Source: a virus
Strand: one strand, 5' to 3'
Virus record (IMG/VR): IMGVR_UViG_3300024433_000018
Coordinates: 1-39,215 of that record
Length of the DNA stretch: 39,215 bases
The position numbers and the translations under genes are program-made. Below the pieces are notes generated by a model. That model was not told where the DNA came from. It made no database searches and saw only the letters and a list, made by a program, of their open reading frames with translations. Within the stretch, counting starts at the first letter, position 1; the number at the start of each line of letters is the position of its first letter. This document shows, in pieces, positions 2,810 to 38,752 of this stretch.

Positions 2810-2866
2810 TCTCACAAGCAGTGCCATGTTTGCATCCATTTAATATGGATATCATTGGAGAATAAC

Positions 2867-4105
2867 ATGGCCGTTCCAAATAACATTTTACAAACCGTAC
2901 AAACCTACCAAATGTCAAACTTGGCATATCTGCAAAACTTAAACTGTTTTGTGGCTACTGCTAATACAAAATTTAAAAATTTTGAACGAGAAGTCGCAAA
3001 TTTGGGCGATACAGTGACGTTTGATTTGCCACCTAGATTTACTTCTGCTAACAGTTTGATAGCAACCTTTCAGTCTGCTGAACAGCGTGTTGAAACACTT
3101 ACTGTTGACCAGGCGATTAACGTCTCTTATGCCTTCACTGCACAACAATTTATTTTCAATGTCGAAGATTACATGGATAAATTCGGTAAATCTGCCGTGA
3201 TGGAGATGTCTGCTGATATTGAAGCTAATATTGCACGAGTTTGCGTTGAAGCTCCCTATCGTTTCTATGGTGACGGAATTAGTCAGATCAGTTCATATGG
3301 TCAATTAGCGGCTGCGCTCGCTATGTTTCGTAACTATGGCGCAGCCAAAGATAACACCAAGTTTTACATGAGTGATATTGCGCAATCTGCGGTGGTTAAC
3401 ACTGGTCTAAACCAATTCGCACCTAAACGTAACGATGAAGCCGCTAACTCTTGGGATATTGGTGATTTTGATCGTGCTGCATTCTATGTATCTAACTTGC
3501 TTCCTGTTCATACTGCTGGAACTTTGGGTGAGGACGGAACTGTGTTGACCGTAGTATCTGTTGTTAAAGATGCGAACGATGCAATCACTCAAATCGTTTT
3601 CTCTGGTGCTGGTAATGATGCTGATGCGGTTAAAGAGTTCGATAAATTCCAATTCTCTGATGGCGTTTTAGGTCAAACTAACTTGCGCTACCTGACCTTC
3701 ATTGGACATAAGATTTCTAGCAACCCTGTCCAGTTTAGGGCTACTGCTGATGCTGCATCTAATGCTGGTAACGTAACTGTTGACGTTTATCCTCCTTTGA
3801 AATCTGCCGCTGGTAGTGACAGAAACTTGAACGTGGATATTGTGGCTGGTATGCAAGCAACGGCATTGCCTTCTCACAGGGCAGGTATGATTACTGCTGG
3901 CAATCCTTTGTTCTTGGGTATGCCCATGCTGCCTGAAGAAGTTCCATTCCCAACTGCAAACGAAACTGACCCTGATACTGGCGTTAGTCTGCGTATGTAC
4001 TACGGTTCTTTGTTTGGTCAAAACCAGCGTGGAATGATCCATGACGCTATTTGGGGCAAGAAGTGCGTACCTGAGTATGCAATGTCTGTAATTTTCCCAT
4101 TGTGA
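2867..4105 (+). CDS. Major coat protein (P22 gp5-like)
   Basis: The product is 412 residues against 430 in P22 coat, and belongs to the P22 coat family (HK97-like fold). It begins MAVPNNILQTVQ. The early segment with GDTVTFDLPPRF and the following VDQAINVSYAFTAQQF is typical of these coats. I chose the ATG at 2867 over the in-frame TTG at 2855 because GGAG lies 6 bases upstream of the ATG and the TTG overlaps it. It lies directly after scaffold and is followed by a GC-rich hairpin. Confidence 0.9.
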   Translation: MAVPNNILQTVQTYQMSNLAYLQNLNCFVATANTKFKNFEREVANLGDTVTFDLPPRFTSANSLIATFQSAEQRVETLTVDQAINVSYAFTAQQFIFNVEDYMDKFGKSAVMEMSADIEANIARVCVEAPYRFYGDGISQISSYGQLAAALAMFRNYGAAKDNTKFYMSDIAQSAVVNTGLNQFAPKRNDEAANSWDIGDFDRAAFYVSNLLPVHTAGTLGEDGTVLTVVSVVKDANDAITQIVFSGAGNDADAVKEFDKFQFSDGVLGQTNLRYLTFIGHKISSNPVQFRATADAASNAGNVTVDVYPPLKSAAGSDRNLNVDIVAGMQATALPSHRAGMITAGNPLFLGMPMLPEEVPFPTANETDPDTGVSLRMYYGSLFGQNQRGMIHDAIWGKKCVPEYAMSVIFPL

Positions 4106-4109
4106 TTCT

Positions 4110-4125
4110 AGGGGCGTAAGCCCCT
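4110..4125 (+). terminator. Stem-loop after coat gene with GTAA tetraloop
   Basis: The sequence GGGGC-GTAA-GCCCC forms a perfect stem, extendable by one A-T pair, with a GNRA-type loop. It starts five bases after the coat stop codon. There is no downstream T-tract, so it is more likely an mRNA 3'-end stabiliser or weak attenuator than an intrinsic terminator. Such an element would help keep coat mRNA abundant relative to downstream tail genes. Confidence 0.5.
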
Positions 4126-4146
4126 TAACTTGATAAGGATTTCAAA

Positions 4147-4890
4147 ATGTCTATTTCAACCCCTGTTGTAAATGCTGGATTCAAATATGTTAACGGTATG
4201 CGTTTAACATGGCTTACTGGCACAACCATGACTGTTGCTGCTGGACAATGCAGAAACTCAACTGACGTGAACGATATCACTATCGCTGCTGATGTCACTA
4301 TCAACACTGCAACTAACGGTGCTGGTGGTCTTGATCAAGGCTCAATGGCAAACAGTACTTTTTATGCTGTGTATGCAATTGGCGATAGCTTTGGCAACAA
4401 TCCTGGTTCAGCTTTGATTTCTGCTGATTTATCATCACCTGTTTTGCCTGGCGGCTACAATATGTTTTTCCGCATTGGTTACGTTAAGTCAAGGGGTGCG
4501 GCTGCATTGCGGGCCTTCCGTCAAGACGGTGGAAGCCTTGACCGCTGGATGTGGTATGACGCATTTATTGCCACCGATGTGACTGCTGGTGCATCTGCAA
4601 CTTACGCTGCCGTTGATGCTTCTGACGGTCTGCCATCTAATACCCCAACTATGGTCAACTGGTATTGCAAATTCACCCCTACTGCTGCTGATGACTTGCT
4701 AGTGCTAGTGCCAGGCACTTCAACTGCTGCTGGTGGTTATGCTAGTGCTTCTGGTGCGGTAGCTGCGGTTGTGGAAACTGTGAATCTAATTTGCCCCACT
4801 GATTCCCCTGCAACTAATGCCATTGACTATAAGGTAACAGGTAGTGCGGTAGCTATTTCTGTGGCTGCATACTTAGACCAATTAGGTTAA
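4147..4890 (+). CDS. Putative virion structural or decoration protein (247 aa)
   Basis: I do not recognise the family. The protein is rich in Ala, Gly, Thr and Ser with beta-strand-like alternation, contains few Lys, and reads like a secreted or virion-surface beta protein (for example segments around TVAAGQCRNSTDVNDITIAAD). It lies between coat and the gp4-like tail factor, where P22 relatives may carry a head decoration or head-completion protein. AAGGA lies 8-9 bases upstream of the ATG. Capsid decoration is an inference from position and composition only. Confidence 0.55.
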   Translation: MSISTPVVNAGFKYVNGMRLTWLTGTTMTVAAGQCRNSTDVNDITIAADVTINTATNGAGGLDQGSMANSTFYAVYAIGDSFGNNPGSALISADLSSPVLPGGYNMFFRIGYVKSRGAAALRAFRQDGGSLDRWMWYDAFIATDVTAGASATYAAVDASDGLPSNTPTMVNWYCKFTPTAADDLLVLVPGTSTAAGGYASASGAVAAVVETVNLICPTDSPATNAIDYKVTGSAVAISVAAYLDQLG

Positions 4891-4899
4891 GGATTTGCT

Positions 4900-5604
4900 A
4901 TGGCCTACACGACATTACAGCTTATAAACTTTGCTTACTATGAGTCAGGCATTGTATCTCGCGGCTTTGAGACTGTTGGAGGCCAGCAAGCCAATGATGG
5001 ATTAATTTATTTAAATGACTTAATTGCGGATAAGACTATCGAAAATGGTCTTATCCCTTATTACCAGCAATATGATTTTAATGCTGTCATTAATCAGGAA
5101 ATGTATTTTATCCCAGATTTAATCGACATTGATACTTTTGTTTTCTACATTGACACTGTTCGATACCAAACTCAGAATCGAGCCAGGCGTCAATATTTTG
5201 GCACATCGAGAGCCGATAACATTCAATCATTGCCTGGTAGCTGGCATATGGAGCGGTGTTTTGGTGGGGCTAACATATACATTTACTTTAAGCCTAATCA
5301 AGCTTTTCCTTTAACAATTTGGGGTCAATTCAGACTTCAAGAGGTTGCTATAAACCAAGATTTATCATTAACGCTTGATAGATTTTACATTAACTATCTC
5401 AAGTATGATTTAGCCGCCAGACTATGCGCTGAGTACAACTACAATGTTCCAGCCGGAGTAGCTAAAGCCCTTGCAAAATACGAGAACGATATTAGCAAAA
5501 AAAGTGGTCCTATGGATCTAAATATGGTCAAGCTGTCTAGTTTGCAGCGTAGGGGCGGTATAAATTATGGAATTGTAAATATTGGGAAAGGGTGGATAGC
5601 GTAA
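4900..5604 (+). CDS. Tail accessory / head completion protein (P22 gp4-like)
   Basis: This matches the P22 tail accessory factor gp4 family, which binds beneath the portal ring and closes the filled head. It has 234 residues against 166 in P22 gp4. The N-terminal half is helical (TLQLINFAYYESGIVSRG and QQANDGLIYLNDLIADK), with conserved-looking aromatic strands in the middle. The last codons overlap the gp10-like start (TAATG). An AAGGA site precedes the ATG. Confidence 0.75.
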   Translation: MAYTTLQLINFAYYESGIVSRGFETVGGQQANDGLIYLNDLIADKTIENGLIPYYQQYDFNAVINQEMYFIPDLIDIDTFVFYIDTVRYQTQNRARRQYFGTSRADNIQSLPGSWHMERCFGGANIYIYFKPNQAFPLTIWGQFRLQEVAINQDLSLTLDRFYINYLKYDLAARLCAEYNYNVPAGVAKALAKYENDISKKSGPMDLNMVKLSSLQRRGGINYGIVNIGKGWIA

Positions 5605-7208
5605 TGGCGATTATGACCCCAGGCGCACAAGAAGTACCTGTTGCTATTGTAGGTTCTAGTAAGTTTGGTCGTCATCCCATTATCTCTGACGAACGCACAT
5701 GGAATATGTATATTTCAGATGACTGGCTATTAAACTTTGCTGGATATGAGCAAGCCGTAGAAATCAGTGCTGTTGGAATTGAGGGCAGAGGACTGTTCCA
5801 TTCAGTTCGTGGTGATTTTCTTTTAGCCGTTATCGGATCACAAGTTTTCAGAATTAACCGTGGTGGTGGCTATATTTTCCTCTTTGGATTATCAGGCGCA
5901 ACTACTGGCGAAGTGTTTATGGATGAAAATCTGAGTTCACAAATTGCTATTGTCGATGGAGTTAGCGGTGGCTATATTTATAACTACGCCACTGGAGTTA
6001 ATTCAGTAGCACCCATTGTTCGTACAGGTGATGTACAGACTTTTACGCCAAATTATGTAACTTACCAGAACACATATTTTATTTTTGGAAATGCCTTAAC
6101 TTCTAGCTCTGGCTCAGCATGGTATGTTTATAAATCTGGATATGACCTTAGTGGCACACCAGCAACGGCTTTTGATCTCGAATATGTTCAGACCTTAACG
6201 CTACAAACAAAGCCTGATTTTGCTAAAGCTTGTATAAGAATTCCCTCTCATGGAAATAACTTATTGGTGCTAGGCTCTAGTGTTGCAGAAATATGGACAA
6301 ACGTAGCTGGCTTACAAATATATCAACGTAACTCATCGGTAAACATCGATTACGGTGTGGCGAGCGTATCAACCATTGCTGCTGGTGATGACATGGTTGT
6401 ATGGCTAGGCATTAACGAAAAGTCCTCTCCTGCCATCATGGTTATGGCTGGTGGACAGGCACAAAGATTATCAACCGATGGTATCGATTTTCTATTAAGC
6501 CGAGTAACTCGCCCCGACAGATCGACCGCTATGTTCTATCGTCAGGATGGACACGTATTTTACATTCTTACTTTTTTTGACGATGCGGATAATTTTTCTA
6601 TTGCGTATGACTTTACTACAAACAAATTTTTTGACCTAACTGATTGGGATTTTACCTATCATCCAGCAAGACAAATGGCATACTTTGATAATGATATTTA
6701 TTTCGTATCATTAAAACAGGGTAGCTTGATGCGGATGGGTACAGATATCACTTCTATATCCACAGACATTCAAAACAACTATGAAATCCCACGCATTAGA
6801 AAATGTGATACCTATAGATTGCCTGGTAGCGATAGATTTATTGTTAATCAATTTAGCTTCACCATTGAAAACGGTGTCGAGCAAGACGTAGATTATCAGT
6901 TTGAATGTGACGGGTATATTATAGGCGAGTCTAGTGGCGAAATTATTTATTCAGAAGATGACCTACCCCTATTGGTTGAGGGCGCTGGATGCCAGGTTTA
7001 CAAGCCTAGAGTTGATGTAACTATCTCTAAAAATGGCGGTGAAACTTATAGTAACCCAGTGTCCTACTATATGCACAAGACTGGCCAATATAAAAATCAA
7101 CCAAGGTTTCATAAGTTAGGCGAAGCAAATCAATTCACTGTGCAGCTACGGTTTTGGGGTACAGGTGATGTTGTTATTGCTAATGGAAAATTAGAGGTCT
7201 ATCAATGA
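5604..7208 (+). CDS. Packaged DNA stabilisation protein (P22 gp10-like)
   Basis: The product is 534 residues against 472 for P22 gp10, the hub or nozzle protein of the tail that retains packaged DNA. Repeating beta-rich segments such as YIFLFGLSGATTGEVFMDE and a C-terminal strand-rich domain fit the beta-propeller of gp10. I chose the ATG at 5604, which overlaps the previous stop (TAATG) and has AAAGGG upstream, over the in-frame GTG at 5592. It immediately follows the gp4-like gene, as in P22. Confidence 0.8.
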   Translation: MAIMTPGAQEVPVAIVGSSKFGRHPIISDERTWNMYISDDWLLNFAGYEQAVEISAVGIEGRGLFHSVRGDFLLAVIGSQVFRINRGGGYIFLFGLSGATTGEVFMDENLSSQIAIVDGVSGGYIYNYATGVNSVAPIVRTGDVQTFTPNYVTYQNTYFIFGNALTSSSGSAWYVYKSGYDLSGTPATAFDLEYVQTLTLQTKPDFAKACIRIPSHGNNLLVLGSSVAEIWTNVAGLQIYQRNSSVNIDYGVASVSTIAAGDDMVVWLGINEKSSPAIMVMAGGQAQRLSTDGIDFLLSRVTRPDRSTAMFYRQDGHVFYILTFFDDADNFSIAYDFTTNKFFDLTDWDFTYHPARQMAYFDNDIYFVSLKQGSLMRMGTDITSISTDIQNNYEIPRIRKCDTYRLPGSDRFIVNQFSFTIENGVEQDVDYQFECDGYIIGESSGEIIYSEDDLPLLVEGAGCQVYKPRVDVTISKNGGETYSNPVSYYMHKTGQYKNQPRFHKLGEANQFTVQLRFWGTGDVVIANGKLEVYQ

Positions 7209-35388: not shown

Positions 35389-35739
35389 ATGTTAATACCA
35401 TACGAAAACAAAAATATATATATCGCATCTAAACCAGTTGATTTCAGAATGTCCATCGATGGACTATCAGGGTTTATTCAAAGAGAAAAGAATACCCATT
35501 TGCACGATGGTTCTATATACGTTTTTTACAACACCAATAAAGATAAAATTAAATGTCTATTCTGGGATAGAAACGGCTTCGTGCTGTATTACAAAAGATT
35601 AGATAAATGCAGATTTAAGCTTAAAGACAGGCTTAATGCCGTAGAGTCAATGACCGCAGAAGAACTAGAAATTCTATTATCTGGCTTTGAACCAACTAAT
35701 CAATCCAGGCAAAAAGTGTATTTGGAACATAAAGCTTAA
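35389..35739 (+). CDS. IS66 TnpB (Orf2)-like protein (116 aa)
   Basis: A clear member of the IS66 TnpB family: NIYIASKPVDFRMSIDGL at the N-terminus, then SIYVFYNTNKDKIKCLFWDR, NGFVLYYKRLDKCRF and a C-terminal LTAEELE-type helix. The ATG follows the TnpA-like stop with no gap. The third IS66 gene, TnpC transposase, is absent and a promoter and tRNA follow. The function of TnpB in IS66 is itself unknown. Confidence 0.88.
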   Translation: MLIPYENKNIYIASKPVDFRMSIDGLSGFIQREKNTHLHDGSIYVFYNTNKDKIKCLFWDRNGFVLYYKRLDKCRFKLKDRLNAVESMTAEELEILLSGFEPTNQSRQKVYLEHKA

Positions 35740-36057: not shown

Positions 36058-36093
36058 ACCATGTAGCGTGACTCCTATTACTCGCTACATGGT
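36058..36093. other. Perfect 11-bp inverted repeat upstream of the terminase start
   Basis: ACCATGTAGCG (36058-36068) and CGCTACATGGT (36083-36093) are separated by 14 bases. It lies 38 bases before the likely TerL start. It could be an operator, a hairpin in the mRNA leader, or part of the packaging (pac) site. Confidence 0.5.
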
Positions 36094-36130
36094 ATGCATG
36101 ATGCATTTTTGGCAAAGGATTGCCCCATCG

Positions 36131-38752
36131 ATGGATAATGATCAAAACTTAAAATTTGAGAATGCTGAGATTGCCGCTAAATTAAAGGGTAGTCTTTTGC
36201 TATTCATCCAAGCTTTCTTCCCCATCCTAACGGGTAGAGAGTTTATCATCTCCCATCCCATCGGCAGGGAAAGCCATTTCATTACCATTTGCCGAGCATT
36301 AACTAAATGTACACGCCTACAAGCATTACGGCTTTTGATAAACGTACCCCCTGGCCATGGTAAGTCTGTAATTGTAAGTTTCTGGATAGCCTGGTGCTAT
36401 GCCAAATGGCCTGACTGTAACTTTCTGTATATCTCATACTCTAAAACACTGGCCACAAGCCACACAGAAACGATTAAACGCATTATGCAGCTTAGTCAGT
36501 ACAAACTATTATTCAATGTTCACCTGCGTGACGATTCACAAGCCAAAGATGCATTTACCACCGAAGAAGGCGGCACTGTAGCAAGCTTTGGTTCTGCTGG
36601 TGCGATTACTGGTCGCAACGCTGGCTTGCCTGGTCTAAAAAGATTCAGTGGGGCTGTTTTATGCTTTCCTTGGGATGAATATGTACAGACAGAAAATGGT
36701 GCAATTAAAATTGGCGAAATAGTCGATAAGAAAATGAATCTGAAGGTTTATTCCGTTAATTTAGAAACCAACGCAGTTGAGCTAAAACCAATTATAGGCC
36801 ATTTTGAAAATCCTGGCAGTCCAATTGTAGAAATAGAATTTAGTGATGGCGCACTCATACGATGTACGCCTGATCATAAAATTTGGACTGATAATCGAGG
36901 ATGGATTGAGGCTAAAGATTTATTGATCAGCGACAAGCTTCCTACGCCAACGCCATATAGTCCTTTGCGGCACACCAATGATAGCCGCACATTTTCTTTG
37001 CGAAATACTAAGGTCTTTAAGCGCATTCAACTCATTACTAGAAAGATGCGTAAACTTGCAACTAATATTGCGCTTCCCAATTTTTTCCCTTGCAGCCTCA
37101 GTCTCCGAAGCCCTACTATCACCACGCCTGATTTTCTGAATGGTAAGAGAACTGGTGTTAAATTTTTTAGCAAGGTCTTTTGCGGAAAGTGGACTCAAAA
37201 CAAACTCAATAACTTCTTTAGTGGCGAACTTGGCACAGGGATGACGCTCACCCATGGAAAAAGTCCCATGACAAATAGAGTCAGCAATATTTTCAGATCG
37301 AGTTCCATACCTCAAGTTTTCTGGTCTATTATCAAGTGCATCACCATTAATATGGCATACATCATACCCTTTAGGTTGTTCTCCGCAAAAAGCCCATGCA
37401 ACCAATTGATGAACAAAAATATTTTTTTTCAAGGTCGAGCAAGTAATCCTTGTCCAAAAGTATTTTCCGCCATTCTTAAGAGTAAGTTTTTTAATTTTTT
37501 GAGGTTCAATCCGGTAACTTCGGTTATCGCCATAATAAACAGTTCTTTGTTCCGATCTAATTCTTCCAAAACTAGATGCGCTATACAATCCATCAAGTCC
37601 AGGAATAAGTCGCCACTCTTCATTCGTTATATTGGTCATGTTAATAAATCCTATTGTATAAATGTGGAAACCCATCATAACTTCTTCTGCGGCACAAGTG
37701 AAGACAAATTTACGCTTGTTCAGAACTGCGACGATATGCATAAGCCAGACGAAGTTCATTCAGATTTAGTACGAGAATCTGTAATAACCAACTTCCGTGA
37801 AACTATCCAGATGCGTCCACGGGGCGTAAATGTTCCCATCATATTTATTGGTCAGCGATTACACGAGCAAGATTTACCTGCTTTTTTCATTGCTGGTGAA
37901 GATGGCTATGAATGGGATAAAGTCATTTTAAAATCCATTGATGATGCTGGCAATGCTCTTTACCCAGAAGCCTTTCCCCTGGATATGTTAAGGATTAGAC
38001 AGACGAAAGACAGGTATGTATTTGCAGCGCAGCACCAGCAAGACCCTCAACCCGCTGGCGGTGGTTTATATACACCAGAAGATTTCCCTTTACTGGCTGA
38101 AGAACCAGAGTATTACATTACATTCATCACGGCTGACACGGCTGAAACCGAAGACCCCAGAAATGATGCTACCGTATTTTCCTTCTGGGGAATGTATAAC
38201 ATTGAAACTCAGGGGCGTAAGACTGGCGTAATGGGACTGCATTGGATTGATTGTCGTGAGATACGAGTTGAGCCTAAAGATTTAGAACGTGAATTTTTAG
38301 ATTTCTGGCAGGAATGTGGACGGCATCCAAATCCACCTCTTATAGCTTATATAGAGAAGAAATCAACGGGCGTTACACTAATCTCAATCCTAAAGAATAT
38401 GCGTGGTTTAAAAGTCAGAGAGATTGAGCGAACCCGTAAATCAGGTAGTAAATCACAACGGTTTATTGATATCCAGCCATACATTGCCAGCAAGCAAGTA
38501 TCACTACCATCACACGCACCTCACACAGAAATATGCATAAATCATATGAAAAAAATCACAAACAATGATTCCCACGCACATGACGATATTGCAGATACTT
38601 GCTCAGACGCAGTAAGAATAGCACTTATAGATAAAAATCTGACTATGTTTACCAACAAAAATATTCAAAGCAGAAGCGCAACAATACAAGCGTTAAATAG
38701 ACATAACAATGTTATCAAGCTTAAAGAACGAGCTTATAAGATAAGGAAATAA
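36131..38752 (+). CDS. Large terminase with an in-frame intein (873 aa precursor, 518 aa mature)
   Basis: The ATPase/nuclease motor that packages DNA through the portal. Walker A NVPPGHGKSVIV is near residue 79. The extein sequence GAVL-CDDMHKPDE is the Walker B region, split exactly by an intein (36662-37726). The nuclease domain shows FITADTAETEDPRNDATVF and a final DDIADTCSDAVRIA. After splicing the product has 518 residues, near the 499 of P22 gp2. I start it at the ATG at 36131 (AAAGGA upstream), not the GTG at 36068, which lies in the inverted repeat. Confidence 0.9.
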   Translation: MDNDQNLKFENAEIAAKLKGSLLLFIQAFFPILTGREFIISHPIGRESHFITICRALTKCTRLQALRLLINVPPGHGKSVIVSFWIAWCYAKWPDCNFLYISYSKTLATSHTETIKRIMQLSQYKLLFNVHLRDDSQAKDAFTTEEGGTVASFGSAGAITGRNAGLPGLKRFSGAVLCFPWDEYVQTENGAIKIGEIVDKKMNLKVYSVNLETNAVELKPIIGHFENPGSPIVEIEFSDGALIRCTPDHKIWTDNRGWIEAKDLLISDKLPTPTPYSPLRHTNDSRTFSLRNTKVFKRIQLITRKMRKLATNIALPNFFPCSLSLRSPTITTPDFLNGKRTGVKFFSKVFCGKWTQNKLNNFFSGELGTGMTLTHGKSPMTNRVSNIFRSSSIPQVFWSIIKCITINMAYIIPFRLFSAKSPCNQLMNKNIFFQGRASNPCPKVFSAILKSKFFNFLRFNPVTSVIAIINSSLFRSNSSKTRCAIQSIKSRNKSPLFIRYIGHVNKSYCINVETHHNFFCGTSEDKFTLVQNCDDMHKPDEVHSDLVRESVITNFRETIQMRPRGVNVPIIFIGQRLHEQDLPAFFIAGEDGYEWDKVILKSIDDAGNALYPEAFPLDMLRIRQTKDRYVFAAQHQQDPQPAGGGLYTPEDFPLLAEEPEYYITFITADTAETEDPRNDATVFSFWGMYNIETQGRKTGVMGLHWIDCREIRVEPKDLEREFLDFWQECGRHPNPPLIAYIEKKSTGVTLISILKNMRGLKVREIERTRKSGSKSQRFIDIQPYIASKQVSLPSHAPHTEICINHMKKITNNDSHAHDDIADTCSDAVRIALIDKNLTMFTNKNIQSRSATIQALNRHNNVIKLKERAYKIRK
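36662..37726 (+). mobile_element. Intein in TerL Walker B site (355 aa)
   Basis: The first intein residue is Cys in CFPWDEYVQTENG (block A). Block B is IRCTPDHKIWT with the TxxH pattern. Block F is YCINVETHHNFF and block G is FTLVQN followed by extein Cys. The penultimate residue is Gln where His is usual. The N-terminal splicing part (about 86 codons) and the C-terminal part (29 codons) are separated by 240 codons that are the antisense of an HNH endonuclease gene. The frame is open throughout. Confidence 0.88.
36920..37639 (-). CDS. NUMOD4/HNH homing endonuclease, antisense inside the intein (239 aa)
   Basis: NUMOD4 (EEWRLIPGLDGLYSASSFGR, residues 7-26) is followed by an HNH_3-type core with VHQLVAWAF (76-84) and CHINGDALDNRPENLRYGTR (95-114): His96, Asn104 and Asn108 fit the motif. 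Two C-terminal helix-turn-helix-like segments follow (LAKKFNTSSLTIQKI and CAAIIGVPQRTIWRW). The ATG at 37639, nine bases after AGGA, is preferred to upstream starts. It would cleave intein-less terminase genes. Its codons pair exactly with the sense intein codons. Confidence 0.88.
   Translation of the reverse strand: MTNITNEEWRLIPGLDGLYSASSFGRIRSEQRTVYYGDNRSYRIEPQKIKKLTLKNGGKYFWTRITCSTLKKNIFVHQLVAWAFCGEQPKGYDVCHINGDALDNRPENLRYGTRSENIADSICHGTFSMGERHPCAKFATKEVIEFVLSPLSAKDLAKKFNTSSLTIQKIRRGDSRASETEAAREKIGKRNISCKFTHLSSNELNALKDLSISQRKCAAIIGVPQRTIWRWRRKLVADQ

Follow-up and report, generated by a model that had tools for sequence, protein, structure and literature searches.

Canonical large inteins combine a HINT splicing domain with an in-frame LAGLIDADG or HNH endonuclease, the endonuclease being a domain of the translated intein. 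Here we analyse an intein in terL, the gene for the large terminase subunit (TerL), of a virus with a P22-like portal protein (IMG/VR virus record IMGVR_UViG_3300024433_000018, positions 1 to 39,215; this whole 39.2-kb stretch is referred to as the window). The terL intein shares with canonical large inteins the splicing domain, the type of conserved insertion site and, presumably, the homing cycle, but its endonuclease is not in frame within the intein polypeptide and is instead encoded by a separate gene on the opposite strand.

Split inteins of the kind reportedly presented as 'fractured genes' by Dassa et al. in 2009 likewise have a distinct endonuclease gene between the two intein halves. 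In them, however, the host frame is interrupted and splicing must occur in trans, whereas a single polypeptide runs through the terL intein. One locus that we encountered (L142, 12-891), in which the end of the open reading frame (ORF) for an intein N-half is overlapped by a same-strand NUMOD4/HNH gene and the C-half lies downstream, resembles this split arrangement, the endonuclease gene lying between the halves. HNH nucleases hidden out of frame have been described in a phage methylase (the ShiLan type; PMC11855218). There, as in the terL intein, the hidden HNH gene overlaps an open host frame, but it lies on the same strand in a shifted frame, has no accompanying splicing domain, and is discussed without mention of antisense coding; the terL endonuclease is antisense and is accompanied by a splicing domain. 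In Didymium, nuclear group I introns of the rDNA contain antisense homing endonuclease genes (PMC9548176). In both systems the gene is antisense to its carrier, but the Didymium carrier is a self-splicing RNA in rDNA, and there is therefore no overlapping protein frame to keep open, unlike in the terL intein.

Two further comparisons concern the endonuclease itself. I-HmuI, the intron nuclease of phage SPO1 (1u3e), has the HNH core and DNA-binding modules of the terL endonuclease but is encoded in a group I intron rather than antisense in an intein. Free-standing HNH genes also occur beside phage terL, where collaborative homing of nucleases has been discussed (PMC10448857), and two such genes (L006 and L009), although in one endonuclease clade with the gene described here, lie outside any intein. 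We found no description of an antisense endonuclease in an intein in the open-access literature that was searched, and the original prediction, which knew of no standard class with this layout, holds provisionally to that extent. The parts, intein and HNH endonuclease, are known; the arrangement is provisionally new, and an intein that is used on both strands has apparently not been reported previously.

Organization of the terL intein

The terL ORF (36068-38752, plus strand) is open throughout. The N-extein (36068-36661) has a GTG start and a P-loop (NVPPGHGKS), matches the PHROG terminase large subunit family, and is 71-73% identical at the nucleotide level to intein-less terL genes. The 355-residue intein (36662-37726) is recognized by a Pfam Intein_splicing match (2e-10) with terminase profile matches on both sides. 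The C-extein (37727-38752) opens with the +1 Cys, followed by DDMHKP of the Walker B motif and the RNase H-like nuclease domain (Pfam Terminase_6C). In particular, the sequence reads FSGAVL/CFPWDEYV at the N-terminal junction, CTPDHKIW at block B, IGHVNKSYCINVETHHNFF further along, and LVQN/CDDMHKPDE at the C-terminal junction (slashes mark junctions), and alignment with the empty site (GAVV/IDDSHKPDE) places the insertion at Walker B.

Between blocks B and F, the minus strand carries a NUMOD4/HNH homing endonuclease gene (36920-37639; 239 codons plus stop), with Pfam matches to HNH_3 (2e-14) and NUMOD4 (1e-8), whereas Pfam detects no domain in the sense reading of the same segment. The N-terminal splicing part (36662-36919, plus strand), from Cys1 in block A to CTPDH in block B, ends at the endonuclease stop codon. 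The C-terminal splicing part (37637-37726, plus strand) starts with the His codon of an IGH motif, which lies opposite the endonuclease start, and continues through block F (CINVETHHNF) to block G, ending at Asn355. The endonuclease ATG faces CAT at 37637-37639, and endonuclease and terL codons have common boundaries (antisense phase 0). The gene, its codon-on-codon pairing with the intein and the open sense frame across it are thus as the original prediction described them. The minus-strand ORF formally reaches upstream to 37759, yet every relative aligns from 37639. A Shine-Dalgarno-like AGGA (37649-37652, minus strand) is located 9 nt ahead of the ATG, within codons of the intein motif S/T-Y/F-C. 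A weak candidate promoter (TTCACT-17-TATGAT; 37674-37702, minus strand) matches no better than chance.

Sequence features and predicted structures of intein and endonuclease

The intein has the residues expected of a class 1 intein. Among the 18 members of the family described below, Cys1 is invariant, T69 and H72 of the block B TxxH motif are invariant, N355 is invariant, and the +1 residue is Cys in 18 of 18. AlphaFold2 (AF2) models, built from the window and IMG/VR loci, support this assignment. Specifically, intein residues 1-97 and 313-355 have a predicted local distance difference test (pLDDT) score of ~90 and form a HINT fold (Foldseek: RecA, DnaE and NrdJ-1 inteins, E ~3e-7); residues 98-312, which correspond to the sense reading of the antisense gene, have a pLDDT of ~30 and almost no secondary structure. 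The plus strand thus encodes TerL in which unstructured filler (~215 residues) is flanked by a complete pair of HINT splicing blocks.

The endonuclease is modelled with a mean pLDDT of 85. Its closest solved structure is I-HmuI (1u3e; E 6e-7, sequence profile 1.6e-21), and its NUMOD4 and HNH_3 domains retain the conserved core residues of a NUMOD4/HNH homing endonuclease. Two HNH residues, H96 and N108, do not vary across the alignment. Read on the minus strand, the filler encodes a conserved endonuclease that has a start codon of its own and a ribosome-binding-like site.

A family of loci sharing this layout

Searches of IMG/VR using the endonuclease and tblastn of annotated phages recovered another 17 distinct loci in which the same organization recurs at the same site of terL, together with a partial extra copy at a contig end (L135); the arrangement is a family, not a single oddity. 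One of the 17 is Escherichia phage BUCT618 (OM735461), in which terL is annotated and the endonuclease is not. The endonuclease is antisense in phase 0 in 18 of 18 loci, the terL frame is continuous in all 18 full loci, and the inteins all lie at the Walker B motif, at positions no more than 3 codons apart. The terL genes that carry them are very diverse (exteins down to ~20% identity), and several members exceed 55% G+C. Four high-GC loci (L145, L233, L245 and L167), in which the antisense frame is open but an intein is lacking, were inspected and discarded.

The initiation region is similarly conserved. The endonuclease starts with ATG (GTG in L124) opposite a His codon in 18/18 loci, and this His belongs to an I/V-G/R-H motif just before block F, except in L020, where the start lies a few codons upstream. 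AGG or AGGAGG is present 6-10 nt upstream of the start in 17/18, within the S/T-Y/F-C codons of the intein. The TATGAT of the promoter-like site faces conserved block F codons in most relatives.

Individual members show variations. In L011 and L124, the C-terminus of the endonuclease runs antisense through intein block B, and both strands there consequently encode a possibly functional protein. In L123, the TerL ORF (2819-6571, minus strand) contains two inteins, one at the P-loop with an in-frame LAGLIDADG endonuclease and one at Walker B with the antisense HNH gene. In L022 (5004-5645, plus strand), ~23 of the residues separating NUMOD4 from the HNH core are missing from the antisense endonuclease, the intein frame being open; this endonuclease is possibly decaying.

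When cellular genome contigs were scanned with the alignment of the endonucleases, a single match was obtained, distant and free-standing. No intein copy occurs in E. coli genomes, where similarity to the BUCT618 terL region is limited to short and distant stretches (4% of the query).

Codon avoidance and the choice of frame

The absence of TTA, CTA and TCA from the 18 Leu and 20 Ser codons of the window endonuclease, noted in the original prediction, withstands quantification. In the other genes of the window, TTA and CTA make up 59% of Leu codons and TCA makes up 25% of Ser codons, and the chance of finding none of the three in the endonuclease at window codon use is P ~4e-10. Random synonymous recoding of the gene at window codon usage (20,000 trials) placed 15.8 ± 2.8 stops in the opposite frame, with a minimum of 5. 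Across the 18 antisense genes, 0 forbidden codons are observed versus ~114 expected from local codon use, whereas 80 free-standing relatives contain 362 versus 279 expected. The protein family itself therefore does not avoid these codons. Keeping TTA, CTA and TCA out of the overlapping codons means that TerL is not truncated.

Antisense phase 0 demands avoidance of only these three codons, all of which have synonyms. In antisense phases 1 and 2 and in one same-strand shift, some dipeptides force a stop under every synonymous choice; in the remaining same-strand shift (intein frame at endonuclease +2), no dipeptide does. Antisense phase 0 is thus one of only two alternate frames that can encode any protein without forced overlapping stops. 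For the 18 actual proteins, there are no unavoidable stops in phase 0, at least one in 17/18 in phase 1, and at least one in 12/18 in phase 2. We infer that the frames are used because of this freedom in the genetic code, with common ancestry accounting for part of the 18/18.

The same-strand free frame is occupied in two other inteins. The Walker B TerL intein of Gordonia phage Clown (MT771343; L271, 2348-4573) has an HNH nuclease in a shifted frame on the same strand, and a helicase intein of Vibrio phage 1.088.O (MG592463; L276, 3001-4042) has a DUF559/Vsr-like nuclease similarly placed. In both, the insert resembles nonsense in the intein frame and the nuclease occupies the same-strand free frame, so that both free frames are in use. 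Dual-coded inteins may well be a general class, an extension that we favour with some reserve, with the endonuclease in exactly the two code-free alternate frames (antisense codon-on-codon, and same strand with the intein frame at endonuclease +2); the limit to two would follow from the fact that only there do synonymous changes alone keep the host frame open.

Selection on the two strands

Substitution patterns in 13 pairs of relatives separate the two readings. The ratio of nonsynonymous to synonymous differences (pN/pS) is 0.09-0.60 in the endonuclease frame, 0.85-2.6 in the terL frame through the same codons, and 0.14-0.50 in the terL frame of the flanking splicing blocks. In terL codons along the intein, variability peaks at the third position, shifts to the first inside the endonuclease and then returns to the third (Fisher P 1e-7 for the window versus L001; 6e-10 for L015 versus L017). 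Together, the strand-specific pN/pS values and the position switch indicate that the antisense reading is a conserved protein and the sense reading filler kept free of stops; in these comparisons, the terL frame through the endonuclease codons is unconstrained apart from the absence of stops. A lack of conservation of the endonuclease frame in related inteins had been named beforehand as grounds for abandoning the proposal; we found the opposite, purifying selection and 17 more loci. Strand-specific selection, the domains and the conserved layout likewise support the proposal that one segment serves as endonuclease on one strand and intein insert on the other.

Probable mobility and origin

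Intein-less terL relatives, including L042, have 71-77% DNA identity and read GAVV/IDDSHKPDE at the site. In phylogenetic trees, L124 groups with L008, L011, L013 and L123 by endonuclease (support 98) and by splicing blocks (81), but with L010, L016 and L216 by exteins (99). This conflict fits movement of intein and endonuclease together between terL lineages, as judged from the sequence trees.

The intein endonucleases and three free-standing ones form one supported clade. The free-standing genes L006 and L009 of this clade lie just upstream of intein-less terL genes, in divergent orientation. Of these free-standing relatives, L006/L079 and L009 adjoin intein-less terL, and the empty site of L009 already has Cys at +1. 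The arrangement probably arose when a free-standing HNH gene directed at terL, and divergent from it, came to lie in reverse orientation within a terL intein, an event made workable by antisense phase 0 being one of the two frames without forced stops.

Elsewhere in the window, an IS66 Orf2-like (TnpB_IS66) gene (35389-35739, plus strand) lies shortly upstream of terL; no IS66 transposase was recognized near it.

Alternative explanations

We consider it highly probable that the locus is a mobile intein at Walker B of phage terL with an antisense, dual-coded homing endonuclease. Several points weigh against this. The whole case, including the putative splicing, cleavage, antisense transcription and homing, rests on sequence-derived evidence, and most of the loci are metagenomic contigs. 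The 18 loci were first recognized by an open terL frame, and their zero stops are in part built in; as an independent check on this circularity, a search of all endonuclease loci of the family found no intein halves with a broken frame on the strand opposite an endonuclease. A minus-strand promoter scan did no better than shuffles (4 matches on both strands versus 3.3 expected). The penultimate His of block G is replaced in most members (QN in the window; SN, AN or QN), HN being present only in L020 and L022. Some active inteins lack this His, and the feature is not strictly defining.

The principal competing explanation is that the intein is able to splice but the antisense endonuclease has ceased to drive homing, being a passenger that bars rival phages or decays. 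The shortened L022 gene is what a decaying copy would look like, and homing activity is itself a prediction from sequence; against this stand purifying selection on the endonuclease frame in 13 of 13 pairs, the invariance of H96 and N108, and the joint travel of intein and endonuclease across terL lineages, and we regard a passenger as unlikely. The minus-strand ORF might instead mirror, by chance, a functional intein domain encoded in sense, since GC-rich genes, such as those of the high-GC members, often have an open antisense phase-0 frame. The window, however, has low-GC codon use, domains and fold are found on the minus strand, and the sense reading has no Pfam domain, a pN/pS of ~1 and a pLDDT of ~30. 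Codon use, the recoding simulation and the strand-specific substitution pattern rule out a chance open antisense frame, and we give a mirror almost no weight. Many phage HNH genes reside in group I introns, and on that background the insert might be removed as RNA, as a group I or group II intron; but there is no Rfam match, the frame is open throughout, and the insert has intein blocks A, B, F and G, whose protein sequence is conserved and for which a fold is predicted, making removal as RNA extremely improbable.

Discussion

For a mobile intein with a dual-coded endonuclease, we propose the following cycle. TerL would be translated through the filler, and the intein would splice itself out, restoring the packaging ATPase. 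The endonuclease would be made from a separate minus-strand transcript and, during co-infection, would cut or nick intein-less terL alleles at the Walker B codons. Repair would then copy in the whole intein together with the endonuclease gene.

Inteins are defined as a single polypeptide with splicing, and often homing, in the same frame; here these functions are divided between strands, with the result that one segment is selected for a protein on one strand and only for the absence of stops on the other. The locus offers a natural, clean case of antisense overlapping genes governed by a simple rule of the genetic code, and it suggests a route by which endonuclease genes may enter inteins without frame matching. 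If the proposed reading is true, the antisense form would allow the endonuclease to be transcribed apart from the late terL gene. Surveys of inteins based on the polypeptide alone will class such mobile inteins as endonuclease-less, as with BUCT618.
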